A stretch of DNA of 64,000 nucleotides from Candidatus Zixiibacteriota bacterium. Its GTDB lineage: Bacteria > Zixibacteria > MSB-5A5 > GN15 > FEB-12. Shown here piece after piece: positions 15,884 through 43,938 of the stretch. Every line of letters starts with the position of its first letter. Position 1 is the stretch's first letter. The translations under genes were made by a program, and so were the position numbers. The DNA lies in the NCBI GenBank assembly GCA_034003725.1, contig JAVEYB010000007.1:124001-188000 (forward strand). Reading direction: 5' to 3'. The notes beneath the pieces are model-generated. The model saw only the letters and a program-made list of their open reading frames with translations, ran no database searches and had not been told where the DNA came from.

Positions 15884-16981
15884 ATGCCTTTCGGCTCTTA
15901 CCTCACGCGGCTCAGCCGTCTGCTCTTGATCCTGATCGCCGTTGGCGTCATACTCGCCGCGGTCCCCACAACCCAGGCGCAAACTCTGTTCGTTCGCGTT
16001 GGCGATACCACCGGCGCCGGTGGAGAACTGAACTCCGTCATAACCGTGTACTTGGAAAACTACCAGGACACGGTCGGCGCGTTCACGCTCTGGCTCCGGT
16101 TTGCTCGCAGCGATATAGCCAAATTCCAGACCGATCTCGATACCGTGGTGGACACCACCTATTGGCATTGCATGACCGGTTCTTTCCCCAACTGCCAGGA
16201 TTCCGTGTCATGGGAGGAAACCCTGCACGGTCCGACCTGGGATTTCATCCATGTCGACACTGTCGAAGCGCTGGTCGGTGATATCGACACCGCCGGGACG
16301 CTCATCTCCGGATGGGAATATGTCGAGTCGCGAAATATCAACGCCGACGGCAACGACATCCGCGTCACGGCGCTGGCTAACGTGCAGGGCGACGGTCAGT
16401 TCACGCCCGGCATCCCGCCCTTCACCGGCGGCGGCCCCGCCCGCGTGCTCTTCCGCCTGCGTTCCGACATCCTGCAGTGCGATCCCGATTCCCAGTTCGT
16501 CTTTTCGCCGATTGAAATCATCGACCTCGCCAAACAGTGGTTTGTGTTCTCCCGCCCCAACGGCACCGCCGTGGGATACCTGCTTGACACGATTCCCGAC
16601 AGCAACCTCTTCCGGTGCGTGGCCTGGGACGGCAACGAATGTATTGACTACCTGAAAGTATCCCTGCCGCCGTATGACTCGGTCGAGTACTTTGATGCCG
16701 TCATTTCGGTGCTCGACACCGCCAACGTCTTCGTGCAGGACGGCTCCCTGCTCGTGTTGTGCCGGGAGTGCGGCAACGTCAACGGCGACGCGGAGGGGCT
16801 GGTGGACCTCTCTGACCTGATTTACCTCGTAAACTTCCTGTTCCTCGGCGGCCCGCCGCCGCCTAATATGGGCAACGCATCGGTGAATTGCGATGCCAAC
16901 AACGATGTAGACCTGTCCGATTTGATTTATCTGGTGAATTTCCTCTTCCTTGGAGGACCAGAACCCTGCGACGGCTGCTAG
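15884..16981 (+). CDS. Exported protein with cohesin-like domain and C-terminal dockerin-like doublet
   Basis: This 365-aa protein has a signal peptide (hydrophobic residues ~12-27, cleavage after TTQAQ-like). Residues ~33-250 look like a cohesin-type beta-sandwich (LFVRVGDTTGAGGELNSVITVYLEN, GAFTLWLRFA). The end carries two dockerin-like calcium-binding units, each with an N-x-D-x-D loop and the block DLSDLIYLVNFLFLGGP, bounded by cysteines (LCRECGNVNGD at the front, CDGC at the very end) that could form a disulfide. There is no Por-type sorting domain. The ATG has AGGAGG nine bases upstream. It is the first gene of the surface-protein island. Binding partners are unknown. Confidence 0.85.
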   Translation: MPFGSYLTRLSRLLLILIAVGVILAAVPTTQAQTLFVRVGDTTGAGGELNSVITVYLENYQDTVGAFTLWLRFARSDIAKFQTDLDTVVDTTYWHCMTGSFPNCQDSVSWEETLHGPTWDFIHVDTVEALVGDIDTAGTLISGWEYVESRNINADGNDIRVTALANVQGDGQFTPGIPPFTGGGPARVLFRLRSDILQCDPDSQFVFSPIEIIDLAKQWFVFSRPNGTAVGYLLDTIPDSNLFRCVAWDGNECIDYLKVSLPPYDSVEYFDAVISVLDTANVFVQDGSLLVLCRECGNVNGDAEGLVDLSDLIYLVNFLFLGGPPPPNMGNASVNCDANNDVDLSDLIYLVNFLFLGGPEPCDGC

Positions 16982-17394
16982 CCGTCGCGGCCACGCCGCC
17001 CCCGGATGGGCCGGGACGGCGTCCTGTGTGAATGTATGGGTGCATTCATGACCGCAACATGTACTTCTAGTTTGACGCTAATGAGCGATAAACAGATAAA
17101 CGTTAGTCTCGAGTCAGTCAGTCTCGAAAGAAACGCGATACGGCTTACCGCCGTGTCGCTTAACTAGGAAAGAAAAACCCTTGATGGTAGGGAGGACGCT
17201 TACAAGAGGTAGTAGCACGCGCTCAAGATGAGTAAACGGATAAGTGACTCTTTTTGCTCTGGCCAGGGTTGTCACGAGGATCTGGTGGCTCTCATTCTCA
17301 GACGGCTCATAACAGTGGCAGAGGGGGAAAAGAAGAGGCGTTCATTATTCGTTCAAATCGGCTACTAAGTAATTGGACTAAGTAGGAGTAAAAA
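16982..17394. other. Intergenic leader region before the 17395 gene
   Basis: This ~410-base gap has no supportable gene. A weak promoter candidate is TTGACG (17072-17077), 17 bases, GATAAA (17095-17100), which would leave a leader of about 290 bases. TAGGAGTAAAAA just before 17395 provides the ribosome binding site. The GC-rich stretch at 16981-17030 could fold and may act as a terminator for the previous gene, but lacks a T-tract. Confidence 0.45.
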
Positions 17395-20007
17395 ATGAAG
17401 CGCATTTCATTTTTCCTTGCTTTGTTTGTAACAGTCTTTGCATGTGGGCTGGTAAACGCTCAGGTGACAGAGAACGCCATCGTCCTGGAAAACCTGGACG
17501 GTGAATACTCGCCGGGCGTAATCGGACGCAATATCACGGGCCATCTGACGTTCAACATGCGTGTGAACATCCGTGAAGACGTGGTCAAACTCGCCGGTTA
17601 CACCAGCGGCTTCCATGTTTACTCGCCGGACGGCGCGACATGGGAACCCGGTATCGTTGGATCGACTATTGCAACCTTTGCATCTTCCAGCGGTAACTTC
17701 AACGTTACGTCCGTGAACTCGTTCAGCGCTGACGGTATTGGCGCTGACACGCTTGGTTTCAACGGCGTGGCCTTCGGCGGCGGTCTTAACATCCCTGCCG
17801 GCGGCTACAGCGAGGTCGCGTGGTTCATCGACCTTGACCTTGACATGGCGAATAGCGCCAACGACGGCCTGACCATCTGCTTGGACTCGACGGCGACCTA
17901 TCCGCCGACGCTGACCTGGAAGTGGGCCGGCAGCGCCGCCAACTATCCGCCGGCCGGCGATATCTTCCCGACCCACTCGGGTCCGCACTGCTGGATGTTC
18001 GACTCCATCCCGAACATCCCGCCGACTATCACCAACGCGCCGGTTGATATCGACGAGCTTCATTGCGCAGAATTCGAACACGACTTCGACGCAACTGATC
18101 CGGAAGGCGACCTTCCGTACACCTTCATCCTCGTTAGCGGTCCCGGCGCCATCGACGACGAAAGCGGCGTGTGGTCCTGGAATCCTGGTCTTGCCGACGT
18201 GGGCAACTATGTGATCGAAGTTGCGGCTTCCGATCCAATAGCCGGTCAGGGTCCCTCCGCATTCGTCAACGTGATGGTCGGCAACCAGGCTCCGGTCATC
18301 ACCAACTGCCCGGCTGTTGAGGTCAATGCCCAGGTCGGTGTCGACCGTTTTGTTGATCTCAATGCGACCGATGGCTGCAGCGACGTGATCACCTGGTCGA
18401 TCATCGGCGGCACCGGTGCCGGCGATGCTAGCGTCGATCCGAACACCGGCGAAGTGACCTACAATGCCACCGCTGCCGGTACCTTTACGGTTGAAGTGGA
18501 AGCCACCGACGGCGACATGGCCGACGCGTGCATCATCACCTTCATCGCCGTTGAAGGCGCTCCGTACGCAGTAGTGATTGAGAAGGACGAAGGCCAGACC
18601 GGTCTCGGCGCTCTCCAGGGCCAGTTCACCACCGTGGACGTCACTCTGGATGCCGCTGAAGGCCCGATCGGCGGCTTCAGCTTCTTGATCGTGTACGATG
18701 CCTCGGCTCTCAGCTTCTCGAGAGCGATTGTTGACAACTCGCCGTTCTATCAGGATTGCGACTGGGAATACTTCACCTATCGTACCGGCGCCAACGGCAA
18801 CTGCTCCGGCGGCTGCCCGAGCGGTATGGTGAGCGTGACCGGTATTGCCGAGACGAACGATGGTCCGAACCATCCGACGTGGGACTGCACGACCGGTATC
18901 CTCTTCCAGTTGGAGTTCCTGGTTTCGTCCGACCGTAACCTTGAGTGCCAGTACGTGCCGATCCGGTTCTTCTGGGTCGACTGCACCGACAACACCATGT
19001 CCAACATCGGTGGTGACACGCTGCTCGTGTCGCAGGCCGTGTTTGACTATCAGGGCGTGGGCGACGACATCTACTCGCTGAACATCGCTGACCCGAACTA
19101 CGGCTTCCCGACCTATCTGGGCGTCCAGGCTGAATGTCTGGAAAACCCGGATCCGAACAAGCCGACCCCGCGTCAGGCGATTGGCTTCTACAACGGCGGC
19201 GTTGACATTATCTGCGCCGACGACATCGACGATCGTGGCGACATCAACCTCGACGGCGTGGCTTACACCATCGCTGACGTTGTGATGTTCACCAACTACT
19301 TCATCTATGGTAACTCCGCGTTCACCGTTATCCAGGGCGCCGCGTTCCCGATCGAAGCCGCGACTGCTGCTTCCGACGTCAACGTCGACGGTCTGACCCT
19401 GACGGTGGCCGACCTTGTTTACCTGATCCGTGTGGTCATCGGCGATGCGTTCCCGTATCCGAAGACCGTACCGGTTGATGTTGCGTACACCAACGCGAGT
19501 GGCGTTCTGTCGGTTAACGCTCCTGTTGCGGCTGCGTTCGTGATCAGCGAAGGCGCCGAGCCGGTTCTGCTGGCTGACAACATGGAGATCAAGACCGCCA
19601 ACGTCGACGGCGTCTGGAGAACCATCATCTTCTCGACCGAGCAGGGTGCGACCTTCGAAGGCGCGTTCCTGAACACCAACGGCCGTGTCAACTACATTGA
19701 GATGGCCACTTATGACGGTGCTCCGGTTCGCAACCTCGAGATGCCGACCGACTACTCGGTTGCCCAGAACTACCCGAACCCGTTCAACCCGACCACCACT
19801 ATTGAGTTCGCTCTGCCGACCAGCGGTGATGTGTCCGTGAAGATCTTCAACGTCACGGGTCAGCTCGTGCAGGAGATCAGCGGCACCTACCAGGCCGGTT
19901 CGCACTCGATCGAAGTCGACATGACGAACCAGTCGTCCGGTGTCTACTTCTACAAGGTGTCGGCGAACGACTTCTCGAAGACCATGAAGATGGTGCTTCT
20001 GAAGTAG
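17395..20007 (+). CDS. Exported multidomain protein with Ig-like, cohesin-like and dockerin-like modules and a Por-type sorting domain
   Basis: This 870-aa protein has a clear signal peptide (MKRISFFLALFVTVFACGLVNAQ). A beta-rich N-terminal domain (about 25-205) is followed by two Ig/cadherin-like units (PPTITNAPVDIDELHC, then NQAPVITNCPAVEVNAQ), a cohesin-like domain (about 395-560), a degenerate dockerin-like pair (GDINLDGVAYTIADVVMFTNY and VNVDGLTLTVADLVYLIRVV) and a C-terminal sorting domain (NYPNPFNPTTTIEFALP, ending KMVLLK). Such C termini direct proteins through type IX-like secretion in FCB bacteria. Codon use is strongly skewed (CGT, GGT, CCG), suggesting high expression. It is a single-gene unit closed by a hairpin. 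Confidence 0.88.
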   Translation: MKRISFFLALFVTVFACGLVNAQVTENAIVLENLDGEYSPGVIGRNITGHLTFNMRVNIREDVVKLAGYTSGFHVYSPDGATWEPGIVGSTIATFASSSGNFNVTSVNSFSADGIGADTLGFNGVAFGGGLNIPAGGYSEVAWFIDLDLDMANSANDGLTICLDSTATYPPTLTWKWAGSAANYPPAGDIFPTHSGPHCWMFDSIPNIPPTITNAPVDIDELHCAEFEHDFDATDPEGDLPYTFILVSGPGAIDDESGVWSWNPGLADVGNYVIEVAASDPIAGQGPSAFVNVMVGNQAPVITNCPAVEVNAQVGVDRFVDLNATDGCSDVITWSIIGGTGAGDASVDPNTGEVTYNATAAGTFTVEVEATDGDMADACIITFIAVEGAPYAVVIEKDEGQTGLGALQGQFTTVDVTLDAAEGPIGGFSFLIVYDASALSFSRAIVDNSPFYQDCDWEYFTYRTGANGNCSGGCPSGMVSVTGIAETNDGPNHPTWDCTTGILFQLEFLVSSDRNLECQYVPIRFFWVDCTDNTMSNIGGDTLLVSQAVFDYQGVGDDIYSLNIADPNYGFPTYLGVQAECLENPDPNKPTPRQAIGFYNGGVDIICADDIDDRGDINLDGVAYTIADVVMFTNYFIYGNSAFTVIQGAAFPIEAATAASDVNVDGLTLTVADLVYLIRVVIGDAFPYPKTVPVDVAYTNASGVLSVNAPVAAAFVISEGAEPVLLADNMEIKTANVDGVWRTIIFSTEQGATFEGAFLNTNGRVNYIEMATYDGAPVRNLEMPTDYSVAQNYPNPFNPTTTIEFALPTSGDVSVKIFNVTGQLVQEISGTYQAGSHSIEVDMTNQSSGVYFYKVSANDFSKTMKMVLLK

Positions 20008-20050
20008 TTCTGTGTCTCTGTCTGCCAGGCGTCGATGACGCTTGACAATA

Positions 20051-20086
20051 CCCCGGAAAGGGCTAACCCCCTTTCCGGGGAAATTT
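20051..20086 (+). terminator. Hairpin terminator after the 17395 gene
   Basis: CCCCGGAAAGGG (20051-20062) pairs perfectly with CCCTTTCCGGGG (20069-20080) around a six-base loop, and is followed by AAATTT. The stem is 12 bp; the T-tract is short. Confidence 0.75.
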
Positions 20087-20372
20087 CGAACCCGGTGTCA
20101 CACCAGGGAGGCACGATCGATTCGTTACGATAACGGGTAAGCAAGCAATTGCTGGAACAACGAAGGGCTGTGCCTGACGTAGGATGGTCGTGCGATGGTC
20201 GTCATGATGACAATGACCGGTCAGATCGGAAGGAACCTACTGACAGGGACCGCCTTTTTTTGGTTTTGAATGAGGGATTCAGGTTCATGTGCCGACGCCG
20301 CGATGTGGTTCCGCTGACGATCGCGATCGCGGATATCGCGGCAGGATTCTGACCAGAAAACACGATCGGCCC
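20087..20372. other. Gene-free gap before the 20373 promoter
   Basis: I see nothing supportable here. A T-rich run with CGCCTTTTTTTGG at about 20250-20262 could be part of a weak terminator. No open frame has both a ribosome binding site and coding bias. Confidence 0.4.
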
Positions 20373-20400
20373 TTGACAGATTTCGGCAAGAGTGTATCCT
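20373..20400 (+). promoter_or_regulatory. Sigma70-like promoter for the three-gene surface-protein operon
   Basis: TTGACA at 20373-20378 is followed after 16 bases by TATCCT at 20395-20400. The start codon it would serve is at 20924, so the leader would be over 500 bases. The region in between has several short overlapping frames but no supportable gene. Confidence 0.6.
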
Positions 20401-20923: not shown

Positions 20924-23374
20924 ATGTTTGCGAGTTTGGGGCGCTCTGGGGTAGTATTACTGATCGTGCTGTTGTTTGCAGCAGGATTTGGTGTCGCCGC
21001 GGACGATCCGTATGGTGAGCCCGATCTTGTCTACATCGACGCAGTCGAGGGCCGGGCCGGCGACCAAATCGCCGTCCGGATCAACGTCCGCAATGATGAG
21101 ACCATCGGCTCCATCTCGGTCCCGCTGACCTATGACACCAGCCTGCTCACCCTGACTTCGATCAGTTTTACCGGCTCCCGGGCTGAACACCTTGAGACGA
21201 AGCTGATCGCGCCGGAAAAAACCGGCGATATCAAGGGGCACTTCGTCGTGGCCGTCGTCCGCTTCACCGAGCCGCCTATCGAGGCCGGTGACGGGCTGTT
21301 TTTTACGGCGATTTTTACGATCGATCCCGAAGCCGAACCCGGCTTACAGACGGTGATCGATACGTTGTTTTATCCTCCCGGCGGCGAGCTGATCATCAGC
21401 GAAAACTCCGTCGGGACGCAGATCCGCCCGGACTTCACGCCGGGCGCCATCACCATCAAATCCGCCAACCAGGCGCCGTCGTTTGTCGGGCTGGAAGACC
21501 AGTACGTGTTCGAGGGCCAGCAACTGGTACTGGATATCGCGATCAGCGACCCGAATCTCGATAACATCACGCTGGCGGCGACCTCCAAGCCGACCGGCGC
21601 CACGTTTGTCGACAACGGTGACGGCACCGGCCGCTTTGCCTGGACCCCCGGATTTGTGGGACCGTATTCGTCCGACGGGTCCCCGTTTGCGGTGGTGTTT
21701 TGGGCCGGCGACGGCGAGTTCGCCGTCGAGCAGTCGATCGACCTGAGCGTCGTCAACGTCAACCGCCGCCCCGAGATTTCGGCGCCGTCCGAAGTCATCG
21801 TAGCCGCCGGCGAAATCGTCTCGTTTGACGTCGCCGCGACCGACGCCGATTTTGAGACCGTCACCTGGCACGTCCAGTCATCACAGCCGGGTTACCTGTT
21901 CACTCCCGGCAATCCCGGTACGTATACCTGGCAGTCACCCATCACGGAGACATCGGAGTACATCGTCCGTTTTATCGTCGAAGACCCGCATACAGCCGCT
22001 GACACCGCGTCGGTCACCGTCCGTGTCCGCCCCGCGACCCTCTATTCTTTGGTAATCGACACGGCCTCAGCCTCACTCGGCGATGATGTCACGATAGATG
22101 TCCTGCTCGAAAATCTTGTCGGAGTCTCCGGTTTCGACCTGCTCGTCGGGTACGATCTGACCGCCAGCAGCATAGTCGGCGTGACCAGCAATGGAACGAG
22201 GTCGGAAGGTTTTGATTATTTCACGGTCACGCATAACGACCATTCCATCCCCGGCAGTATCCGCATAGTGGGAATCTCGGATAACGCGCCGCCGATCGGC
22301 ACGTTGCTGACCGCCGGCAGCGGCCCGATCGCCCGCATAACCTTCGAGGTCACCAATGACCTCGCCTACTCGGGCTATCAGGTGCCGGTGCAGTTCAAAT
22401 ATCTGGGCGGCACCGCCGGGAGCAGTGACAACACTCTGAGCGACACCCTCGGCGCCCGCATTGACACTACTCAGGTGTACCGCCAGAATGGCGCGATATA
22501 CATCAAATCGATTGGAACGGTCCGGGTCGGCGATATCAATCTCAACGGGATCCAGTATGAAATCGGCGACGTCATTCTGTTTACGAATCACTTCATCAAT
22601 CCGGCCGTGTACCCGTTTAGCGTGATCCAGTACGCCAATTCCGATATCAACGGCGACAACATAGTGGCGTCGATCGCCGATCTGGTCGCCCTCATCAATA
22701 TTGTAGTCGGCGGCGAAGCGGCGCCGAGACTGCTCGATGGTCCGGTCCCGACCGCCCTTATGGGTTCCTCGCAGACTGAATTCAGCCGTCGCGAAATCTG
22801 GTATGAGTCCGAACTGGACATCGCCGCCGCGTTGGTGACCTTTGAGACGACGCCCGGTTTTGATGTCGCGCGGATTGAAGCGATCGATCATAGGATGACG
22901 ATCGCCGCTCACCAGTCCGGAACCACCGTTCGCGCCTTGTTTTACTCGCTGGACGGCGCCATCCTGCGGTCGGGGCACCACGGGCTCTTTGCAGTCGAAA
23001 ATGCAGAAAGTATTACACTGGTTGCAGCCGAGATGGGTACGGTCGACGGCCGGGTAGCGGCGCTCTCCCTGGCGCCTCCCGAAGCCGAAGTGCCCGATGA
23101 GTTTGTGCTGCATCAGAATTATCCGAACCCGTTTAACCCCGAGACGCAAATCGGCTTCGATCTGCCCGTTTCGGGGTCGGTTCGCTTGTCGGTATACAAT
23201 GTGCTGGGACAACAGGTGAAAGTACTGGTCGACGGCGATCTGGTGGCGGGCAGCCACCAGGTAACCTGGAACGGAACGGACCAGTCAGGCCGGACAGTCT
23301 CGTCGGGAATCTATCTTTACCGACTGGAAACCGCCACGGCAGCTTTATCGCGCAAGATGATGCTCCTGAAATAG
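20924..23374 (+). CDS. Exported multidomain protein with cohesin-like, Ig-like and dockerin-like modules and a Por-type sorting domain
   Basis: This 816-aa protein begins at the ATG at 20924, which follows ACAGGAGAAC and starts a proper signal peptide (MFASLGRSGVVLLIVLLFAAG...GVAADD); the open frame extends 32 codons upstream without one. Two cohesin-like domains (about residues 38-190 and 395-540) flank two Ig/cadherin-like units (NQAPSFVGLEDQYVFEGQ, NRRPEISAPSEVIVAAG). A degenerate dockerin-like pair (VGDINLNGIQYEIGDVILFTN, SDINGDNIVASIADLVAL) precedes a sorting domain (QNYPNPFNPETQIGFDLP, ending KMMLLK). It shares domain order with the 17395 protein and is the first gene of a ~15-kb three-gene operon. 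Confidence 0.87.
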   Translation: MFASLGRSGVVLLIVLLFAAGFGVAADDPYGEPDLVYIDAVEGRAGDQIAVRINVRNDETIGSISVPLTYDTSLLTLTSISFTGSRAEHLETKLIAPEKTGDIKGHFVVAVVRFTEPPIEAGDGLFFTAIFTIDPEAEPGLQTVIDTLFYPPGGELIISENSVGTQIRPDFTPGAITIKSANQAPSFVGLEDQYVFEGQQLVLDIAISDPNLDNITLAATSKPTGATFVDNGDGTGRFAWTPGFVGPYSSDGSPFAVVFWAGDGEFAVEQSIDLSVVNVNRRPEISAPSEVIVAAGEIVSFDVAATDADFETVTWHVQSSQPGYLFTPGNPGTYTWQSPITETSEYIVRFIVEDPHTAADTASVTVRVRPATLYSLVIDTASASLGDDVTIDVLLENLVGVSGFDLLVGYDLTASSIVGVTSNGTRSEGFDYFTVTHNDHSIPGSIRIVGISDNAPPIGTLLTAGSGPIARITFEVTNDLAYSGYQVPVQFKYLGGTAGSSDNTLSDTLGARIDTTQVYRQNGAIYIKSIGTVRVGDINLNGIQYEIGDVILFTNHFINPAVYPFSVIQYANSDINGDNIVASIADLVALINIVVGGEAAPRLLDGPVPTALMGSSQTEFSRREIWYESELDIAAALVTFETTPGFDVARIEAIDHRMTIAAHQSGTTVRALFYSLDGAILRSGHHGLFAVENAESITLVAAEMGTVDGRVAALSLAPPEAEVPDEFVLHQNYPNPFNPETQIGFDLPVSGSVRLSVYNVLGQQVKVLVDGDLVAGSHQVTWNGTDQSGRTVSSGIYLYRLETATAALSRKMMLLK

Positions 23375-23430: not shown

Positions 23431-26304
23431 ATGAAGCGATTCAGAATCCTTCTTTTAGTTCTGCCGGCAGTGATGCTGCTGTGGTCCGGGGCCGAGGCCC
23501 AGATCCAGCCGCCGCCGCCGCCGCCCGAAATAATCTCCTGTGATGATTTCACCACCTTCCCGACTGAGAGGGTGTCCATTCCGCTTCTGCGAGCTCGTCC
23601 GGGCGATACGGCGCTGATACCGATTCGGCTTGAGAATACCCAAATCCTCAGCGGCTTCTCGATGCTTTTCGCGTACGAGGAACAATGGCTCAACCCGGTC
23701 TACGTGCCGGAAACCACGATCGTCGGACCCGATATCTTTATCGATGACTCTACGTATGTCGATGTCCGAATTCTCGGCGACACGGCCGGTATTCCCGACA
23801 GTATTCTCGCCGACATTCAGGACGGCGCGACCATCAACCCGGCGACGCCTATCACGGGCCGTTTTCCGATCGACCGATGGACCCGCACCGGGACCGCACC
23901 GTTTTATGTGTACACGCCTCAGTACAAACTGTCCGCTTCCCGGTACCGGTCGTACAATACGCGTTTCGTCGATTCGGTCAGCGTCATGTCGCTGCTCTTC
24001 TCGGACTTCCAGCCGCCGCTCGATACCATCGTGCCCGGCAACAGCGTAGTACTGTACGTCAAGATGCAGGTCGACCCGTCCGCGAACCATCTCGATACCC
24101 TGTACTTCGACTGGTACAAGGAAAACAACTACTACATAGACTCCAGTGACTTCCCGACCGAGGTCGTGTATCTCGACGGTTGCTTCCAGACAGAGCTGGC
24201 AGCCTTTTTCTATACCGGAGACACGATTTTCGATACGACCTTTGACGGCGAAGGCAACGTCATCGATATCGATACCGTCCCGCAAGCCTACTCCACGCCG
24301 CGCTTCCCGGTGGCCACCCGCGGCGCCCTGATCGTCGATACGGAATACGTTCCGGGCTCGGATCCGGTGATCAACAGCTTCACTGCGCTGCCCTCGAGTG
24401 TCGGACCCGGCCAGAGCGTAACGCTCACCTGGACGACATCGAACGCGGACTCGGTCAGAATCAGCCGCGGCAGCACCCTGCTGGGCAGATTTGACGCCTC
24501 CGGTTCTACCACCAACCTCCCGCCGCAGGTCGATGGCGCCTACGTCTATAACCTCACCGCCTACGGCGCCGGCGGATTGACTGCCTCACAGAACCAGACG
24601 GTTACATACAGCAGCGGAGGAGGCGGAACAGGAAGCGCACCAAATATCACGTTTAACCCGCCGGGCGGCGTCTACACGGTCGAACAGGGCCAGGCGCTCT
24701 CCTTTACGGCAACCGCGACCGACCCCGACGGCAAGCAGGTCACGCTGACCGCCAGCAACCTGCCCAATAACGCCAGCTTCGCACCCAACCCCGCCACCGG
24801 TCTTCCGACCGCAGCGGGCTCGTTCAGTTGGGTACCGGATTTCAACCAGTCCGGCGTGTTCTCGGTGACGTTTACGGCGGTCGACGGTGACTCGCAGCAA
24901 CGGGTAGTATCGGTCACGATCAACGTTACCGAGCTTCAATTCGATCGCCTGTTCTCGACTTCTGCTGAAGACCTCGCCCCCGTCGGCGGGCTGCGCGGCA
25001 CCGGTGGAGTTTACTTCCCGATTAACCTCGTCACGCAGCAACCGAACGTGTACGGCGTGCAGTACGATATGAGCTACCCGCCGTCGCAAATCAAGATTGA
25101 CTCGTTCGTCCCCAGCGGACGCATACCCGACTGGGTCATCTATGACAACGTCGGCACGACCCCCGGCCAGGTCCGCGTCGTTACCTTCGGTCTGGCCAAC
25201 GAGCCGGTTGTGTCCGACACCACGACGGCGATTCTCTGGACCGTCATGACTATCGACTCCAGCAACTCGCCCTGGGTAGAGATTCCCATCACCCTCAGCA
25301 ACGGCCGCGAATCGGTCAACCCCGACCCAAACTTCGGGTCGCTCGAACTGGTGACGGAATCGGGGCTTGTCGAAGTCGACTCGCTCGGTGACATCAACCT
25401 CGATCAGCGGATCGACGTCGCCGACGCCGTGAGCTGTGTGGGTAATATTATCGGTGACTTCACGTTCACCCCGCGTCAGTACGCTACCGGCAATATCATT
25501 ATCGATGCCTCCATAAACGTCTTCGACCTCGTGGGTATCATCAACTCGATCTACGGCATCCCCGTCGACATCTCGCCGGCGCCGATCAACACCGATCAGC
25601 CTGCCGTGATCGCACTCGAGCTTGATCCGCTGATGGCCGGATCGTCCGGGCTGATCAGCGTCGCATCGGAATTGCCCGACTTAGTCGCCGGCGTACAGCT
25701 CGAACTGGCGTATGACCCTGCGGCCGTGTCGCTTGGTATCCCGATGCTGACCGACGATGACGCCAATTTCGTGATCCGCTATAAAGATCACGGTCAGCGC
25801 ATGACCGTCCTGCTGTACCACATGGCGCCGTTCAAGGAGACCGAGCTGCTTCAGGCCGGCGCTGCCGAACTGGTGCGTATACCGGTCATCGCCAAGCAGA
25901 ATATCGAACCGGGGGACAAGACCAAGATTCGCATGAACAAGGCGCTTCTGGCCAATCCTAACGCCGCGTCCATCCCGGTCAGCGGCATGGGTCCGGAACT
26001 GCCGTTTGATTTCTCCCTGGCGCAGAATTACCCCAACCCCTTCAATCCGACCACAACCATCAGCTTTACGGTCGGCACCGGTACCGCCGGAGGGGTGGGA
26101 CCACGGAAGGTCAGCCTGGAGATCTTCAACGTCCTCGGACAAAGAGTCTCCATGCTGGTTAATGATAAACTCACTCCCGGCACGTACAACGTGGTCTGGG
26201 ACGCCACGACCGACTCCGGTCAGCGAGTAGCGACCGGTATCTACCTGTACCGCTTACGGGTCGATGACGAGTCCGCGGCGAAAAAGATGCTGTTCCTGAA
26301 ATAG
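23431..26304 (+). CDS. Large exported protein with cohesin-like, Ig-like and dockerin-like modules and a Por-type sorting domain
   Basis: This 957-aa protein starts at ATG 23431, which has AGAGGTAG upstream and yields a signal peptide (MKRFRILLLVLPAVMLLWSGAEAQ); an ATG at 23416 is also in frame. A proline run (QPPPPPPEII) follows the cleavage site. Then come a cohesin-like domain (about 45-300), an Ig-like unit (PVINSFTALPSSVGPGQSVTLTW), a cadherin-like unit with a poly-Gly linker ahead of it, a second cohesin-like domain, a degenerate dockerin-like pair (LGDINLDQRIDVADAVSCVGN), a third beta-rich unit and the sorting domain (QNYPNPFNPTTTISFTVG, ending KKMLFLK). It lies 56 bases after the previous gene and 21 bases before the giant repeat gene. 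Confidence 0.86.
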   Translation: MKRFRILLLVLPAVMLLWSGAEAQIQPPPPPPEIISCDDFTTFPTERVSIPLLRARPGDTALIPIRLENTQILSGFSMLFAYEEQWLNPVYVPETTIVGPDIFIDDSTYVDVRILGDTAGIPDSILADIQDGATINPATPITGRFPIDRWTRTGTAPFYVYTPQYKLSASRYRSYNTRFVDSVSVMSLLFSDFQPPLDTIVPGNSVVLYVKMQVDPSANHLDTLYFDWYKENNYYIDSSDFPTEVVYLDGCFQTELAAFFYTGDTIFDTTFDGEGNVIDIDTVPQAYSTPRFPVATRGALIVDTEYVPGSDPVINSFTALPSSVGPGQSVTLTWTTSNADSVRISRGSTLLGRFDASGSTTNLPPQVDGAYVYNLTAYGAGGLTASQNQTVTYSSGGGGTGSAPNITFNPPGGVYTVEQGQALSFTATATDPDGKQVTLTASNLPNNASFAPNPATGLPTAAGSFSWVPDFNQSGVFSVTFTAVDGDSQQRVVSVTINVTELQFDRLFSTSAEDLAPVGGLRGTGGVYFPINLVTQQPNVYGVQYDMSYPPSQIKIDSFVPSGRIPDWVIYDNVGTTPGQVRVVTFGLANEPVVSDTTTAILWTVMTIDSSNSPWVEIPITLSNGRESVNPDPNFGSLELVTESGLVEVDSLGDINLDQRIDVADAVSCVGNIIGDFTFTPRQYATGNIIIDASINVFDLVGIINSIYGIPVDISPAPINTDQPAVIALELDPLMAGSSGLISVASELPDLVAGVQLELAYDPAAVSLGIPMLTDDDANFVIRYKDHGQRMTVLLYHMAPFKETELLQAGAAELVRIPVIAKQNIEPGDKTKIRMNKALLANPNAASIPVSGMGPELPFDFSLAQNYPNPFNPTTTISFTVGTGTAGGVGPRKVSLEIFNVLGQRVSMLVNDKLTPGTYNVVWDATTDSGQRVATGIYLYRLRVDDESAAKKMLFLK

Positions 26305-35300: not shown

Positions 35301-36054
35301 CACCATCTCCGAAGGCGACTCGCTCAATTTCCGCGTCAGCGCTGTCGATCCGGACGGTGGTGGCAACTTTGCGACCATCTCAGTCTCTGATTTGCCGGAC
35401 AGCAACGCTGTGTACAACGCCTCCTTCTCCAACCTCGGAACGTTCATCTTCACGCCGGACTTCACCCAGGCCGGCACCTACGGGGTGTTGTTCCGGGCGA
35501 CCGATGTCGGTGGCGCTATTGACACGCAGCGGGTGACAATAAACGTCCTTGAGGCCGGCAATCAGGCCCCGACGTTTACGACAGCCCTGTCCATCCAGAT
35601 TGTGATACCCGCCAACACGCTGTACCAGTTGCCGGTGGCGGCATATGATCCAGATCTGGACCCGCTGACAACCACCTGTACGCCGATCGATCCGATCCTC
35701 CCCGGAGCGACATTCGCTCCGACCACGACCGGCGGAACATTCATCTGGCAGCCTGACCTGACGGATGTTGGCACATCGACTCCGCTCACCTTTATCACCA
35801 GTGACCCGAGCGGACTGGCCGATACGCTGACCACGAGTCTGGTGGTGGTCAATGCCCTGCGGGGTGACATCGATCTGGATAGTCGCTACACCATGAACGA
35901 CTTAGCCGTGCTGGTCAGCTTCCTCTTCCGGAGCGGACCGGCTCCGCTGCTTATGGATGTGGCCGATGTTAACGATGACACAGGTGTCAACCTGACCGAC
36001 ATCTTCTACCTCATCAACTTCATGTACAACAACGGCCCGCAGCCTCCACAATAA
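26326..36054 (+). CDS. Giant exported protein of 33 tandem Ig/cadherin-like repeats with a C-terminal dockerin-like doublet
   Basis: This 3242-aa protein has a signal peptide (MLHMRQVVALLFVLAIVAVGASAQ) and then 33 tandem repeats of about 93-105 residues by my count. Each has the form APVL..IGPQSVNEG, DPDGTIP.L, NATF.DNGDGTG.FSFTPDFTQ.G.YNITF, ending VVVTVNN.NQ, which matches putative Ig (He_PIG)/cadherin-like domains with likely calcium-binding DPDG and DNGDGTG loops. Repeats 2-13 are an exact 279-bp register; later ones vary more in length. The protein ends in a dockerin-like doublet (GDIDLDSRYTMNDLAVLVSFLF, DVNDDTGVNLTDIFYLINFMY) and has no sorting domain. GGAGG lies upstream of ATG 26326. 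It is the last gene of the operon. An adhesin, fibre or matrix role is inferred. Confidence 0.92.
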   Translation: MLHMRQVVALLFVLAIVAVGASAQTVAPVLDPIGAQSVDEGQTLNLVITASDADLTIPTLTTSLPLPPNATFLDNGDGTADFSFTPDFTQAGTINITFYANDIVTADIDSEQVVITVDNINQAPVLAAIGPQSVNEGATLAFTVNASDPDGTIPALSATPLPTNATFTDNGDGSGSFSFTPDFTQAGTFNITFSASDGTATDDEVVVVTVNNINQAPVLSAIGPQSVNEGATLAFTVNASDPDGTIPALSATPLPTNATFTDNGDGSGSFSFTPDFTQAGTFNITFSATDGTATDDEVVVVTVNNINQAPVLSAIGPQSVNEGATLAFTVNASDPDGTIPALSATPLPTNATFTDNGDGSGSFSFTPDFTQAGTFNITFSATDGTATDDEVVVVTVDNINRAPVLSAIGPQSVNEGATLAFTVNASDPDGTIPALSATPLPTNATFTDNGDGTGSFSFTPDFTQAGTFNITFSATDGTATDDEVVVVTVDNINQAPVLSAIGPQSVNEGATLAFTVNASDPDGTIPALSATPLPTNATFTDNGDGSGSFSFTPDFTQAGTFNITFSATDGTATDDEVVVVTVDNVNQAPVLAPIGPRSVAEGATLAFTVTATDPDGTIPVLNASPLPTNATFTDNGNGTGSFSFTPDLTQEGTYNITFSASDGALSDDELVVVTVTGTNQAPVLAAIGPQSVNEGATLAFTVNASDPDGTIPALSATPLPTNATFTDNGDGSGSFSFTPDFTQAGTFNITFSASDGTATDDEVVVVTVNNINQAPVLSAIGPRSINEGATLAFTVNASDPDGTIPALSATPLPTNATFTDNGDGSGSFSFTPDFTQAGTFNITFSASDGTATDDEVVVVTVNNVNQAPVLAPIGPRSVAEGATLAFTVTATDPDGTIPVLNASPLPTNATFTDNGDGTGDFSFTPDFSQTGAYNITFSAGDGALTDDELVVVTVTNTNLAPVLDPIGPRSVNEGATLAFTVNASDPDGTIPALSATPLPTNATFTDNGNGTGSFSFTPDFTQAGTFNITFSASDGTATDDEVVVVTVNNVNRAPVLDPIGPRSAAEGATLAFTVTASDPDGTIPALSATPLPTNATFTDNGNGTGSFSFTPDFTQAGTFNITFAAGDGALTDNELVVVTVTNTNQAPALAAIGPRSVDEGDPLQFTVSASDADGTIPSLSASPLPTNATFVDNLNGTGTFTFNPDFTQAGTFNITFTANDGSLTDDELVVVTVNQVNLPPVLASIGPRSTTEGVTLAFTVTASDPDANLQAITAAPLPPNASFTYNGDGTGSFSFTPDFSQAGIYNVTFTARDDSSVTDAEIVTITVNDAGNQAPVLSAIGPQSVDEGQVLTFGISATDPDGTIQSLTATNVPVNGTFTDNGDGTGTFTFTPDFTQQGVYNVIFTATDNLFGTDAEQVTITVNQINLAPVLAPIGPQTVAEGSTLNLSITASDPDGNLESITATGLPLNATFVDNGNGTATFNFIPDFTQSGTYNITFTVTDDSLLTDEELVVVTVTDAGNQPPVLAAIGPRSVDEGQVLTFGVSATDVDGTIQSLTAANVPANGTFTDNGDGTGTFTFTPDFTQQGVYNVTFTATDNGLATDNEVVAITVNQVNLAPVLAAIGPQSVAEGSTLNLSVTASDPDGNLQSLTASPLPANATFTDNGDGTGSFSFTPDFTQSGTYNITFTATDDSLLTDDELVVVTVTDGGNQPPVVTPIAPQSVNEGQTLAFTVTATDIDGTIQSLTAANVPANATFVDNGNGTGSFSFTPDFTQQGVYDVTFTATDDGLATGSTVAAITVNQVNLAPVLDPIGPRSGTENATLAFTVTASDPDGTFPSITAAPLPANATLTDNGDGTASFSFTPDFTQSGVYNITFTASDGLLSDNEAVTITITEAGNQAPVLSAIGPQSVDEGQVLTFGISATDPDGTIQSLTATNVPVNGTFTDNGDGTGTFTFTPDFTQQGVYNVIFTATDNLFGTDAEQVTITVNQINLAPVLAPIGPQTVAEGSTLNLSITASDPDGNLESITATGLPLNATFVDNGNGTATFNFIPDFMQSGTYNITFTVTDDSLLTDEELVVVTVTDAGNQPPVLAAINDTTIIEGQTLAVVISAIDPDGEIPTLSAYELGGTILPANASFTDNGTGSGDFTFTPDLTQSGTYSIVFKALDASLAVDSQVVTITVNETNQAPVLATIPDANVTEGTNLTFAVSASDADGTTPVLSATSVPLNATFTDNLNGTGTFVFDPDFTQAGSYTVRFLASDGIDIDSQDVVITVNDAGNQIPVLTAFNDTTIVEGQTLAVTITAFDADGTFPTLTAENLPENATFADNLDGTASFSFTPNFVQSGVYTVTFIASDGIAADSQIVTITVNEAGNRPPVFTAQPDTSVFEGTSLVLTFTATDPDGTIPALSINTAINSTQYSFVDNNNGTATFTYTPDFFQAGADSVFVIASDGGTPPQTGVLGFRLTTVDINQPPSIVTGGPYGVVVDDTLFVTVTASDSTSPAANPRVLLSGVSLPANATFVDNGDNTGTFRFIPTAADLGQRTFSILGVDQGSPALSNTATIVVNVVEVNDPPVFEPVGPQIITEGETLSLLISATDPDGATPPTIFARTLPDNATLVDLGTGTAAFEFNPDYTQAGDGPSALYYVQFSASDGFDVTRMTVLIQVIEAGDQLPVFDSIPAPFVTEGAALSFSFTAFDPDGGPVTLSTVSGTLPTGASFADNGDGSATISWTPNFVAAGIYDVGVIATDQVGSADTVTITIEVLEAGNQLPVLNPIPDYVVAENSQLQFQISSTDPDQTPPTVATGPLPTGATFVPSGTILGNGTFTWTPTFADSGLHEVIFYAIDAIDPLLYDSQVVTITVTNVNQAPRFILPFPTAQTVNEGQTLTVTVFTTDPDGNIPSLRADLSGTADTLATNMTFTDNGDGTGTLVFTPDYTQGNNFGSFSLYNVDYYVIDAIDPAVEVVYPSVQYRVNNVNQPPDLGFPDGAGPFTISEGDSLNFRVSAVDPDGGGNFATISVSDLPDSNAVYNASFSNLGTFIFTPDFTQAGTYGVLFRATDVGGAIDTQRVTINVLEAGNQAPTFTTALSIQIVIPANTLYQLPVAAYDPDLDPLTTTCTPIDPILPGATFAPTTTGGTFIWQPDLTDVGTSTPLTFITSDPSGLADTLTTSLVVVNALRGDIDLDSRYTMNDLAVLVSFLFRSGPAPLLMDVADVNDDTGVNLTDIFYLINFMYNNGPQPPQ
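26692..30039 (+). repeat. Twelve consecutive 279-bp tandem repeats in the giant gene
   Basis: Unit starts (GCxCC(C/T)GxxCT, the Ala-Pro-Val-Leu codons) fall at 26692, 26971, 27250, 27529, 27808, 28087, 28366, 28645, 28924, 29203, 29482 and 29761, a constant 279-bp step. Units 2-6, 8, 9 and 11 are nearly identical in DNA. Units 8 to 10 resemble units 2, 3 and 7 in order, which points to duplication of several units at once. Confidence 0.93.
30316..30912 (+). repeat. 597-bp direct repeat, copy 1 (repeats 15-16 of the giant gene)
   Basis: This segment recurs at 32014-32610, offset by 1698 bp. I count four single-base differences, all in the last quarter; one changes Thr to Met in copy 2. Confidence 0.92.
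32014..32610 (+). repeat. 597-bp direct repeat, copy 2 (repeats 21-22 of the giant gene)
   Basis: This is the second copy of the segment at 30316-30912, separated from it by four diverged repeats. The near identity over many synonymous sites indicates a recent duplication or gene conversion rather than selection on protein sequence. Confidence 0.92.
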
Positions 36055-39600: not shown

Positions 39601-39983
39601 TGGCCGCCGGCGATACGCTGGAATACTGGATCGTTCAGGCGACCGTGCGCGACGGCGTCGAGGCCGACCTCGTGAACGCCATCCAGGCCGGTCGCACCTG
39701 GTTTACCAACAACATGCCGCTGGCCACTCGGCCGCTGCCCGCGGGCTGCTGCATTGGCTTCACGGGTAACGTGAACAACGACGGCGGTGGTGCGGTTGAC
39801 CTGTCCGACCTGATCTACTTCGTGAACTTCCTGTTCCTTGGTGGTCCGGCCCCGGCCTGTCCGGCTGCTGCCAACATCAACGGTGATCTTGGCTGCGCGC
39901 TCGACCTGTCCGACCTGATCTACCTCGTGAACTTCCTGTTCCTTGGTGGTCCGGCTCCGGCTGGCTGTATCCCGGGCTGCTAA
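36603..39983 (+). CDS. Large exported protein with C-terminal dockerin-like doublet, possible beta-propeller body
   Basis: This 1126-aa protein is best started at ATG 36603 (AAAGGA upstream), giving a signal peptide MARKISLFFVLSLVLVGLLSVSAVA; a TTG at 36570 is also in frame. The long body (about 30-600) contains repeated Asp-rich, Trp-containing strands and phrases such as DRDVAYRESNNMGQSFGPVVN and DNLHIVWNANVYDG, resembling sialidase/BNR-type propeller blades, then a beta-sandwich (about 600-720). The C terminus has a dockerin-like doublet with DLSDLIYFVNFLFLGGPAP and DLSDLIYLVNFLFLGGPAP, bounded by CCIG and a terminal GCIPGC. Codon use favours CGT, GGT and CCG, as in the 17395 gene, which suggests an abundant surface protein. 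Function is unknown. Confidence 0.85.
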   Translation: MARKISLFFVLSLVLVGLLSVSAVAKNTAINKMEAYDFVLKPKMQKIGAEGSDAVRTRINWPVGLEAMDGGSAGRQIGFTYYDIQGNSTIGRLVDWRGGPQIHFGYTFGPSLNVTGDRTVAFQMFDPITGTLPLNGGAGCPVVDPNVQRAGFANIDVRPPSPSISGELSSVVFGAHVSPNTGEDFQTQVFWDQANTLDGYCDFSATNRIGDALEDLFYTADNLIWPKIEYHVNGTDTFTYACNYGASDAGVEPIVFWRVRGRLGDANTWEGQIIDTSFFISQDVIASRLSQKVAVCYTIPAAGESEGSSDRDVAYRESNNMGQSFGPVVNITNYPVGVPGHRAWLESTGIYDTNDNLHIVWNANVYDGSTATGRQCRVFHWASNTGVISTVHNAEWSPNLVCGVMDVNSLNTRAVSISQCDTSLYVIWVQSNDPNNGLIDDCSADLGAGRNGNGDLWLSVSGGLNGLAWDAARNLTNSYTPDCDTVVDGANDCASDNWPAMARYGMNNADFGSLLFPMEAVDEVDPDPSYTGSYFIDVMYIHDKAPGIGSQGSETLTRNPVRWFRLPCVEPVVEANPNVSPTVIGFPTYLNHGEDSSFNLIIENSGTAPLTGTLVTQQDSGPANWLACNQVAVNLGIAPNNFDTALVTLNNGGVVNNPGSVVNLIGRVVLRVDQPTVRDSISLDINLIIADTIVGLAWDTITTGYISLTVGNNGNSGRAGNDGIAGADSGRTNMDFWMTGDECDALPGLDTIPGNARVYLYDNSPVVMWVDTVDGTDTTIAANWSIFSLSLATEQAFRPLADAGYDAPGLLADSLTGGTYDAYWSGFFATTDTSLILEKTSYGAQDAGDATFIIHRVAIWSKTGAAKSGLVIGEAWDWDIPSDSGTDNSAGQVPVNGVLYQRGGEVNESHGDSLECQDNSGRFGGAALIGFRDNSTGANVNTSTPPERFYTASNPTFVFPAGGFIPIELWRNMTDETGFTIDPTTEDQHMAMAIFQDYTLAAGDTLEYWIVQATVRDGVEADLVNAIQAGRTWFTNNMPLATRPLPAGCCIGFTGNVNNDGGGAVDLSDLIYFVNFLFLGGPAPACPAAANINGDLGCALDLSDLIYLVNFLFLGGPAPAGCIPGC

Positions 39984-40072: not shown

Positions 40073-40074
40073 GT

Positions 40075-40330: not shown

Positions 40331-42718
40331 ATGGCAACGCGCGTCACCCGCACGGGTATGTTTCTGACCGTCCTGGCGATTCTCGTGCTTGTCTCGGCAT
40401 CCGGCTGGGCCAGTGTCAGTTCGGACGGATCCAAGGCTGAGCCGATGCTGATCCGAGGCACGCTGGTCGTGGAATTCGAATCGGACGTCGTGATTCAACA
40501 GGTCCAGCGTGGATTCGGCTCCGTATCGCTCGGCATCGCCTCCGTCGACCTGCTCATGCAAAAGCACAATGTCTCCGATGCCGAGAAGGCCTTCCCATGG
40601 CGCGAGGCCGGCCTCGCCGCCAGCGTGGAGGAAAACCGGCTCGCGCGAATCTACCAGCTGACACTCCCCGAATCAGCCGATCTCGAGGCGGTCCGCACCG
40701 ATCTTCTTCAGAATCCGAGAATCCGCGATGTACATATCCTGTATGCGATGCCGGTGACGGCTACGCCGGATGATCCCGAATTCACCAATCAGTGGCATCG
40801 AACCAAATTGCAGCTCGAGTCCGCCTGGGACTACGAACAAGGTTCCGACTCCGTTATCATCGCCATCATAGATAGCGGCGTCAATTATCTCCACCCGGAC
40901 CTCGCCGGCAATATCTGGGTGAATCCCGGTGAAGATATCGATGGCGACGGAATCGTATACGACAACGATGATATCAACGGCATCGATGACGACGGCAACG
41001 GCAAAATCGACGACCTCGTGGGATGGGACTTCTTTAGCGGAGGATTCACCGTGGCCGACGGCGAGGACGGCGGGACGCCCGACCGCGACCCCAACGACTT
41101 CGACGGCCATGGCACCCACTGTGCCGGCATCGCCGCTGCGGTTACCAACAACACCACTGACGTCGTCGGCGTCGCGGGCGGCTGGGCGAACTCCCATCGC
41201 TCCTTCCGGGGACCGCGAATCATGGCCCTTCGCACCGGCGGACGCGCCAACGACGGCCTCGGTTACGTCAACCCGCTCAACTGCGCCCAGGCGATCGACT
41301 ACGCCGTTCTCATGGGCGCCGACATCATCAATATGTCGTGGGGCGGCAGCTCCACGCAGGCCGCCGCAATCGTCAACGCCATCAACAACGGCCTGACGCT
41401 GGTGCATGCCGCCGGTAACGAAGATTGCGACTGCCCGGACCAGCTGGACGGCTACGGCACCAACGTGCTGTCGGTCGCCTCTACCACCTCCGGCGACGGC
41501 AAGTCGGATTTCAGCAACTACGGCGCCTGGGTCGACGTTTCCGGCCCGGGCTCGCTCATCCTGTCTACCGTGTCAAACGAATACTCGCCCGATATCGATA
41601 CCTACTCCGGAACATCGATGGCTGCGCCGATGGTAGTCGGGCTGGCGGCCCTCATCCGTTCTGCCATGCCGTCGTTGACCAAGTCGCAGATTGACAGCGT
41701 CATCATGGCAACCACCGATAACATCGATGCCATCAACCCGTCGTACGCGGGCGCCCTCGGGACCGGACGCATCAACGCGAACAATGCCCTGTCGTCGATG
41801 GCAATCGCGCGGTTCACGTCGACTGCCACCGACGGCCCTGTGCCGCTGCAGGTGACTTTCACCGACCAGTCACCGTTTAGCCCGACCTCCTGGTCGTGGA
41901 ATTTCGGCGACGGCGGTGTGTCGACCGACCCGAATCCAGTTCATACCTATACCCAGCCGGGATTATACGACGTCTCGCTCATCGTGGACGACGCCAATGG
42001 CGTTGGGGAAGAACGCCTCAACCGCTACGTCTGGGCGCAGGCCGATACGATCATCGCGGATTCTGTCGAAGCGATCCCGGGCTCATCTGTGCCGGTGACG
42101 ATCAGCCTGACCAATACGCTGCAGGTTTCGAGTATCGAGTACTCGTTCAAAATCGCCAACAACGAAAGTGTGCTGCTGGATTCGGTTTCCGTTGCGGGTA
42201 CGAGATGCGACGGCATGACCGTGCAGATTCAGGGATACGACATCGCCAACGATCGGTTCTCCGTGTTGATCACCGCGAGTTCGCCGGGAACCACCGACTG
42301 GATGCCCGCAGGCACCGGCCCTGTCATGAAACTCTACTTCCGGATTCCCAGCAACTACACGCGGGTGACTCCAATCGTGGTTGATACCACCTCGTGGGGA
42401 AGCCGCAATAACGAGCTGATTACGCCCATCGGACCGTTTGTCCCGACTATTGACCCGGGTGCGCTCTACCTCGCCGGGTGCTGTATCGGCCAGACCGGCA
42501 ACGTCAACGATGATGCCGGCGGAGCGGTCGATTTGTCCGACCTGATCTATTTCGTCAACTTCCTGTTCCTCGGGGGACCCGCTCCGGCATGCTCCGGCGC
42601 GGCGAATATCAACGGCGACGTCGGTTGTGCGTTGGACCTGTCGGACCTCATCTATCTGGTCAATTTCCTGTTTCTGGGTGGGCCGGCGCCAATGCCGTGC
42701 AACCCCGCCTGTAACTGA
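40331..42718 (+). CDS. Exported subtilisin-like (S8) serine protease with PKD domain, cohesin-like domain and dockerin-like doublet
   Basis: This 795-aa protein has a signal peptide (MATRVTRTGMFLTVLAILVLVSASGWA), a propeptide-like stretch (about 30-150) and an S8 catalytic domain with all three catalytic residues in place: Asp181 in IIDSGVNYLHPD, His263 in GHGTHCAGI and Ser429 in YSGTSMAAP; the oxyanion Asn363 is in HAAGNED. Downstream is a PKD domain (PLQVTFTDQSPFSPTSWSWNFGDG), then a cohesin-like domain (about 565-700) and the dockerin-like doublet (DLSDLIYFVNFLFLGGPAP, DLSDLIYLVNFLFLGGPAP) ending PCNPACN. The protease is predicted to act outside the cell or on its surface. A Cys next to the catalytic His (THCAG) and several Cys near CDCPD are unusual but may pair. 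Confidence 0.94.
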   Translation: MATRVTRTGMFLTVLAILVLVSASGWASVSSDGSKAEPMLIRGTLVVEFESDVVIQQVQRGFGSVSLGIASVDLLMQKHNVSDAEKAFPWREAGLAASVEENRLARIYQLTLPESADLEAVRTDLLQNPRIRDVHILYAMPVTATPDDPEFTNQWHRTKLQLESAWDYEQGSDSVIIAIIDSGVNYLHPDLAGNIWVNPGEDIDGDGIVYDNDDINGIDDDGNGKIDDLVGWDFFSGGFTVADGEDGGTPDRDPNDFDGHGTHCAGIAAAVTNNTTDVVGVAGGWANSHRSFRGPRIMALRTGGRANDGLGYVNPLNCAQAIDYAVLMGADIINMSWGGSSTQAAAIVNAINNGLTLVHAAGNEDCDCPDQLDGYGTNVLSVASTTSGDGKSDFSNYGAWVDVSGPGSLILSTVSNEYSPDIDTYSGTSMAAPMVVGLAALIRSAMPSLTKSQIDSVIMATTDNIDAINPSYAGALGTGRINANNALSSMAIARFTSTATDGPVPLQVTFTDQSPFSPTSWSWNFGDGGVSTDPNPVHTYTQPGLYDVSLIVDDANGVGEERLNRYVWAQADTIIADSVEAIPGSSVPVTISLTNTLQVSSIEYSFKIANNESVLLDSVSVAGTRCDGMTVQIQGYDIANDRFSVLITASSPGTTDWMPAGTGPVMKLYFRIPSNYTRVTPIVVDTTSWGSRNNELITPIGPFVPTIDPGALYLAGCCIGQTGNVNDDAGGAVDLSDLIYFVNFLFLGGPAPACSGAANINGDVGCALDLSDLIYLVNFLFLGGPAPMPCNPACN

Positions 42719-42920: not shown

Positions 42921-42947
42921 TTGACTCGTTTTCGTCAATGGTATATC
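42921..42947 (+). promoter_or_regulatory. Promoter candidate for the 43060 gene
   Basis: TTGACT (42921-42926) is followed by TATATC (42942-42947) with a 15-base spacer, or by TATCGT (42944-42949) at 17 bases. A T-rich stretch lies just upstream. The leader to 43060 would be about 110 bases. Confidence 0.5.
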
Positions 42948-43059
42948 GTAGCCCGGTGCGTACTTTCGTATCTTTACGTTGCGGAAGCGCACCTTATTAC
43001 TTTTCTCAGTTCGAGAGTCGAAGGATACTGAAGATACAGAACATGGAGGCATTTTGACC

Positions 43060-43938
43060 ATGAAGTCGCTAGTGTTATCAATTTTTCTGGGGCTCCTGCT
43101 GGTCACAGCCGTGCCGGTCGCCGCTGACGATCTCGGGGCGCCCGATTCCGTCAAGCTCGTCGCGACCCGCCCTGACATCAGCGGAAATGACTCGTCCTTT
43201 GCCGTTGAACTGTACATGTGGACCGACCTGCAGGCCATCGTCGGCGCAACTCTCGGGTTTGTCTGGGACAATCCGAACGTTCTCCTGGACTCCGTGATCG
43301 GCGTACCCGGTCACATCCAGGGTAATCCGTTTGCCATCGTCAGCTACATGTACAAAAACAACATCGATACCACCAATGCCGCGAAGAGGTTTCTGATTAA
43401 CGCCGTGGCGTTTGGCGTTCCCGGTGTCCCTGCAAACGGAACCTGGGATCACTGGGCCACCTACTACTTCAGTGTTACCGACTGGACGGCGACCGACTCT
43501 ATCGTCCTCGACACGGCCAACGTGATGGTCTCTCCCCAGGTTATATGGCAGACTGCCGGCGGATATACCGCTGGTGACGTCATTTTCCCGATCTGGACCG
43601 GCAAAGTCGTTATCAAGGATCCTTCCGATGCCGCCCAGCCGGGTGATATCGAAGTCCCGTCGACTTACTCTCTGCTCCAGAACTACCCGAACCCGTTCAA
43701 CCCGTCTACCACCATAGGCTTCGCCCTCCCGACCGCGGGCGATGTCACGCTGGACGTGTTCAACCTGCTGGGGCAGAAAGTAAAGACTCTTGTGAATACG
43801 GCGATGGAAGCCGGAGAACACACAGTCGTATGGGATGGCACCACTGATGCCGGTACTCGCGTCGCCAGTGGCGTCTACTTCTACCGCCTCTCAACTGAGA
43901 ACTTCACCGACACCAGAAAGATGTTGATGCTGAAGTAA
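43060..43938 (+). CDS. Exported protein with cohesin-like domain and Por-type sorting domain
   Basis: This 292-aa protein starts at ATG 43060, with GGAGG at 43044-43048 and a signal peptide MKSLVLSIFLGLLLVTAVPVAADD; the open frame extends 27 codons upstream but those codons are not signal-like. Residues ~28-205 form one beta-rich cohesin-like domain (DSVKLVATRPDISGNDSSFAVELYMWTD, GATLGFVWDNPNVLLDSV). The C terminus is a complete sorting domain (QNYPNPFNPSTTIGFALP, ending KMLMLK). There is no dockerin-like unit. It is the simplest member of the island and could serve as an anchoring partner for the dockerin-bearing proteins (inference). Confidence 0.87.
   Translation: MKSLVLSIFLGLLLVTAVPVAADDLGAPDSVKLVATRPDISGNDSSFAVELYMWTDLQAIVGATLGFVWDNPNVLLDSVIGVPGHIQGNPFAIVSYMYKNNIDTTNAAKRFLINAVAFGVPGVPANGTWDHWATYYFSVTDWTATDSIVLDTANVMVSPQVIWQTAGGYTAGDVIFPIWTGKVVIKDPSDAAQPGDIEVPSTYSLLQNYPNPFNPSTTIGFALPTAGDVTLDVFNLLGQKVKTLVNTAMEAGEHTVVWDGTTDAGTRVASGVYFYRLSTENFTDTRKMLMLK

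Follow-up and report, generated by a model that had tools for sequence, protein, structure and literature searches.

The eight genes of the island described here, which lies within a window of 64,000 nt (the whole stretch of DNA analyzed, positions 124001 to 188000 of its contig, in a genome of 3.73 Mb and 99.5% completeness), are probably one locus of a genome-wide, protease-rich, cellulosome-like surface display system for proteins. Sequence or structure prediction supports its parts, namely, cohesin modules, dockerin doublets, T9SS tails, core T9SS genes, and peptidase domains (Table 1). A signal-peptide-like stretch was read by eye at the N terminus of all eight ORFs, from the first or a nearby start codon. 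We propose that the T9SS-tailed cohesin proteins (P0002, P0003, and about 10 more) would be exported and anchored to the outer membrane, and that their cohesins would there capture the calcium-loaded C-terminal doublets of ca. 60 proteins that are secreted in soluble form, at least 16 of which are peptidases. Proteins combining a cohesin with a doublet at the C terminus (P0007 and ten others, including several proteases) would serve as adaptors extending the chain. The first-pass annotation had pictured the island proteins interlinked as an extracellular matrix. Both types of module are indeed present. The island does not form a network closed in itself, however, being one locus among ca. 64 doublet proteins and 24 cohesin ORFs in the genome.

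Table 1. Features of the island, in window positions.
Feature	Position	Strand	Description
Island	15884..43938	+	Eight ORFs, P0001 to P0008, all on this strand
P0001	15884..16981	+	Signal peptide-like N terminus, long putative cohesin-like domain, C-terminal class-B doublet
P0001 class-B dockerin doublet	16772..16969	+	105 bits, own profile
P0002	17395..20007	+	Beta domain, Ig repeats, cohesin, class-A doublet, T9SS tail
P0002 cohesin	18610..19035	+	Profile match, 112.6 bits
P0002 class-A internal dockerin-like doublet	19237..19440	+	Own profile
P0002 T9SS C-terminal sorting domain	19771..19995	+	TIGR04183, 5.4e-14
P0003	20828..23374	+	Cohesin, two Ig-like domains, cohesin, class-A doublet, T9SS tail
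P0003 cohesin 1	21023..21454	+	Pfam Cohesin and profile
P0003 cohesin 2	22049..22471	+	Pfam Cohesin and profile
P0003 class-A doublet	22529..22726	+	Conserved across genera by orthology
P0003 T9SS tail	23120..23359	+	TIGR04183, 31.5 bits
P0004	23416..26304	+	Two possible cohesin-like modules, Ig-like domain, doublet by eye, T9SS tail
P0004 dockerin-like doublet	25387..25557	+	By eye; missed by profile
P0005	26326..36054	+	About 30 Big_9/cadherin-like repeats, C-terminal divergent doublet
P0005 dockerin doublet	35863..36045	+	Dockerin_1 13.7 bits, below cut-off; own profile 63 bits
P0006	36570..39983	+	1,137 aa; class-B doublet is the sole known domain
P0006 class-B doublet	39765..39962	+	110.8 bits, own profile
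P0007	40331..42718	+	S8 peptidase, PKD, cohesin, class-B doublet
P0007 Peptidase_S8 domain	40847..41722	+	1.6e-42
P0007 cohesin	42044..42466	+	Template-free model, PDB fold matches
P0007 class-B doublet	42497..42694	+	Own profile
P0008	42979..43938	+	Beta domain without identity, T9SS tail; likely start near 43060; no doublet
P0008 T9SS tail	43684..43923	+	TIGR04183, 40.8 bits

Cohesin-like sandwiches had been assigned to most of the island proteins. We found firm cohesins in three of the eight (P0002, P0003, and P0007) and possible, weakly supported ones in two more (P0001 and P0004), while the cohesin profile search found nothing in P0005 and P0006 and profile comparison gave no support for a cohesin in P0008. 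With the Pfam Cohesin model (PF00963), suggested earlier as a check, the two domains of P0003 scored 57.3 bits against a cut-off of 24.1, and all the other window proteins fell below it (P0007 at 15.5 bits). Iterated cohesin profiles, seeded with the P0003 orthologs and the P0007 sandwich, joined P0002, P0003, and P0007. P0004 gave two fragmentary matches to these profiles, and the match of P0001 was weak or obtained via a paralog, its domain being at best a distant, longer version of a cohesin. The combined profile matched cohesins of known structure in the PDB, with E values down to 1e-8. Structure prediction, named earlier as a possible refutation of the cohesin folds, bore out the fold of P0007: the C-terminal region of P0007 was modeled with template-free AlphaFold2 from 36 related sequences (mean pLDDT of 89), and all 50 of the best PDB matches listed by Foldseek for the sandwich were cohesin structures (TM up to 0.79, normalized by target), the non-cellulosomal cohesin 2xdh of Archaeoglobus being among the top ones. 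The multidomain model of P0003 retrieved chiefly generic Ig and cadherin chains, together with individual cohesins such as 5lxv (TM of 0.65).

Dockerin-like units, claimed before for seven of the eight proteins, were confirmed by profile in six (P0001, P0002, P0003, P0005, P0006, and P0007) and by eye in P0004; P0008 has none. The Pfam Dockerin_1 search (PF00404) did not recover them, as every doublet in the window scored below the cut-off (P0005, 13.7 versus 22.9 bits), partly because many have a calcium loop two residues longer than the canonical one. Several doublets of the same family elsewhere in the genome do pass the Pfam dockerin cut-off, as seen from their overlap with the matches of a 69-residue doublet query. 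This query retrieved 68 matches at an E value of ≤0.01 in the 3.7-Mb genome, the best at 2e-42, and on sequence grounds a chance origin of these matches is excluded. When the doublet profile was compared to the PDB, the five best matches were dockerins (best E value of 0.0023); a profile was needed, as the search with a single sequence returned nothing useful. Alignment of the 68 doublets shows two repeats of a DxNxD...D calcium loop followed by a helix, and the P0007 model has helices in each of the two repeats. The conserved loop ligands suggest that the modules would depend on calcium. Two classes could be distinguished. Class B consists of VDLSDLIYLVNFLFLGGP twice, often with cysteines at both ends, and is found in ca. 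64 proteins of the genome; it is C-terminal in about 60 of them and lies no more than 11 residues from the end in 58. Class A, seen in P0002, P0003, and four other proteins, lies inside the chain, with a T9SS tail after it.

The genome-wide cohesin profile detected 28 domains in 24 ORFs. Cross-reading the searches, 12 of these ORFs are T9SS tailed, 11 have a class-B doublet at their end, and one has neither, an arrangement reminiscent of the anchors, adaptors, and clients of a cellulosome; in a rough test, which assumes ca. 3,200 ORFs and uses a profile built partly from the same proteins, the enrichment was strong. A scaffold with many cohesins was sought in the genome, and the maximum was two per ORF. 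The TIGR04183 matches of P0002, P0003, P0004, and P0008 exceed the 23-bit cut-off, and there are 50 such tails in the genome, along with SprA (588 bits) and PorV-family genes; the tails may attach the cohesin proteins to the surface. Almost all class-B proteins were scanned with Pfam, which identified 16 peptidases of seven families (five S8, three C25, two C1, two M28, two M14, one M4, and one trypsin-like), plus a peptidyl-arginine deiminase-like protein and a sugar dehydrogenase-like protein. The earlier claim that the S8 protease is a member of the system agrees with P0007 having both a cohesin and a doublet. It had also been stated that cellulases and carbohydrate-binding scaffolds are missing; we found no cellulase or CBM in the island proteins, nor any CBM, or any glycoside hydrolase at an E value of ≤1e-6, among the ca. 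60 doublet proteins scanned with Pfam. Many of the scanned class-B clients lack a known domain, and the term “protease-rich” therefore applies to the recognized enzymes rather than to the whole set. Since half of the cohesin carriers are T9SS tailed and the catalytic clients are mostly proteases, we favor the surface display of enzymes and other clients over a purely structural matrix.

The adaptor role of P0007 and the ten similar proteins has a competing explanation, in which the cohesin and the doublet of the same chain clasp each other as a calcium-locked stabilizing pair and form no network. In most of these 11 ORFs the two modules are adjacent and joined by a short linker, and the two-domain model of P0007 (pTM of 0.71) is compatible with a fixed arrangement without being a proof of it. 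However, a clasp would leave aside about 50 doublet proteins with no detected cohesin, as well as the 12 T9SS-tailed cohesin ORFs that have no class-B doublet, and it would not explain why unrelated proteins have a doublet dialect in common (see below). We regard it as very unlikely.

Each genome appears to have its own form of doublet. In a comparison of five genomes (with six sequences from G040 and four from G015), the consensus was the same in both halves of the doublet and specific to each genome: DLSDLIYLVNyLFLGG here, DISDLVYLVDYMFTGG in G022, DIADAVYLINYVFKGG in G040, and NLSDVIYLANYLLKGG in G109. Identity was 0.55 to 0.69 within genomes and 0.35 to 0.50 between them, the foreign doublets being the best scorers of a profile built on this genome. 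In a tree of the doublets, with few columns and most forks unresolved, the five groups needed five changes (minimum of four; mean of 43.6 after shuffling). The columns that differ between genomes include 10, 11, 17, 18, and 22 in both repeats, which have been listed as putative recognition residues (PMC3413522), and also 9, 13, 14, 20, and 21. Recent duplication was rejected as the source of the similarity: four-fold sites are saturated (0.60 to 0.62 versus 0.63 expected) in all but the seven closest pairs, and likewise in G022 and G109, indicating that the protein sequence of the doublets is held by selection with no recent copying. The P0007 doublet illustrates the pattern, with an identity of 0.69 to paralogs in the same genome versus 0.41 to counterparts in other genera, while the values for its cohesin were 0.26 and 0.30, respectively. 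Class-A doublets show the reverse (0.55 to 0.76 to orthologs outside the genus versus 0.45 to 0.50 to paralogs). The internal doublet of P0003 thus tracks orthology and not dialect, which implies that not all doublets do the same job. For class B, the dialect argues strongly, if indirectly, for one partner common to all the doublets of a genome, which would be the simplest reading, and we propose that they share a dialect because they would compete for the same sockets. The dialect could also be an ancient lineage-specific expansion under another constraint.

These patterns also bear on the idea that the proteins are unconnected secreted beta-sandwich proteins with EF-hand-like caps, whose likeness to cohesins and dockerins would be evolutionary only. 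Such modules are widespread outside cellulosomes, and the ANME survey (PMC9012536) pointed out that the presence of cohesin or dockerin domains alone does not reveal their function. A plain structural cap, however, needs no genome-specific form, and the doublets are under selection in such a form across unrelated proteins despite their saturated synonymous sites; the internal class-A doublet behaves differently as well. We give this idea little credence.

The C-terminal doublet might instead serve as a tag for sorting or anchoring, used in place of the T9SS tail and read by an unnamed receptor or enzyme, with the cohesin folds structural and nonbinding. This would fit the position of the doublet at the extreme C terminus of nearly all carriers, a single dialect per genome would suit one receptor, and doublets far exceed Pfam-level cohesins in number. 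One case of tail exchange also speaks for it: in the sister genome (L097:8606-9445), a 302-aa protein has a short N-terminal domain of the P0002 type followed by a class-B doublet in place of the T9SS tail. On the other hand, homology links the doublets with true dockerins and the sandwiches with true cohesins, the putative recognition positions are among the dialect columns, 23 of the 24 cohesin ORFs carry a T9SS tail or a doublet, and in four carriers the doublet is internal to the chain. We consider the tag unlikely, although less so than the clasp or the caps, and retain cohesin-doublet capture as the preferred reading. Doublets nevertheless outnumber cohesins by about 2:1 to 4:1, and some of them may have partners other than cohesins.

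At the level of the phylum, for which 132 genomes were covered, 126 have doublets and 118 have Pfam cohesins. Genomes without cohesins were five of the six free of doublets versus nine of the 126 bearing them, but the six belong to two families, and the co-occurrence test overstates their independence. It is conceivable, and we put this forward tentatively, that the phylum as a whole has a proteolytic analogue of the cellulosome, anchored through T9SS, with a dockerin dialect proper to each genome extending over 50 to more than 150 proteins and with plug and socket coevolving. G022 and G040 each have at least 150 doublets (273 and 325 candidates at first look) and six Pfam cohesins. One genome offers a wiring plan that can be tested (anchors, adaptors, and clients), with protein as the substrate class and a putative genome-specific recognition code at known contact positions. 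If the binding is true, it would explain how a widespread uncultured phylum organizes protein breakdown outside the cell, and natural cohesin-dockerin specificities, many and independent of each other, would become available.

The existence of cohesins and dockerins beyond cellulosomes is no recent discovery, but what they do there is mostly unclear. As in the classical cellulosomes of Clostridium thermocellum, Acetivibrio cellulolyticus, and Ruminococcus flavefaciens, the folds are those of cohesins and two-repeat dockerins, the dockerins are C-terminal, sockets are few and plugs many, and the recognition residues are species specific; unlike them, there is no cellulase or CBM scaffold, anchoring would be through T9SS tails, and the clients are peptidases. 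Gingipain-type C25 peptidases ending in a dockerin doublet were located at L081:13354-17091, L082:4819-8715, and L086:3814-5487. The C25 clients have catalytic domains with a propeptide, as do the gingipains of Porphyromonas, which bear the T9SS tail themselves, whereas the C25 proteins here end in the doublet. The archaeal non-cellulosomal modules (Archaeoglobus 2xdh and ANME) share the cohesin fold and a use at the surface without cellulose, but without T9SS, and the ANME dockerins are on transporter binding proteins and S-layer proteins (PMC9012536). The mucinolysome of Limousia (PMC12997984) is likewise a cellulosome-like complex for a non-cellulosic substrate, although it concerns mucin glycans and gut bacteria, with interactions modeled by AlphaFold3. 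The closest precedent is the cellulosome-like complex proposed for “Candidatus Stygibacter” (Cloacimonadota), with C-terminal dockerins on S8 and C25 peptidases, a cohesin protein with a C-terminal surface attachment domain, and no classical cellulose system (PMC8542988). It has a single 3,755-aa scaffold with tandem cohesins and CBMs, and GH18 and GH57 clients, while here there are T9SS-tailed proteins with one or two cohesins, cohesin-dockerin adaptors on proteases, and ca. 60 clients, of which those scanned include no glycoside hydrolase. The system is thus a variant of a kind already described, distinctive in its lack of glycoside hydrolases among the recognized enzymes, in the separation of T9SS-tailed cohesins from cohesin-dockerin adaptors, and in the dialect. 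Our literature searches found no paper on dockerins or T9SS in Zixibacteria.

Within the island, P0003 is a candidate for a conserved anchor. It is near full length in many of 60 relatives and partial in others, the near relatives with names being a “candidate division GN15” MAG and Candidatus Zixiibacteriota MAGs, which makes the organism Zixibacteria-like. The gene order P0001-P0002-P0003-P0004 is kept in L099 and L100, and an ortholog of P0001 lies upstream of P0002 in L097, L099, and L100. A decayed gene between P0002 and P0003 was discarded, as the gap (20008 to 20827) contains no remnant. P0005 is 3,242 aa long, several of its ca. 30 repeats are near identical, and they possibly form a long stalk. 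Residues 1 to 1060 of P0006 had no match in Pfam or NCBIfam, and the protein resembles only a paralog in L058 (38% identity) and part of L093. Directly downstream of the island (44158 to 46338) is a GH35/GH42-like protein, which is not among the doublet carriers, and upstream (6992 to 8596) there is an N6_N4 DNA methylase.
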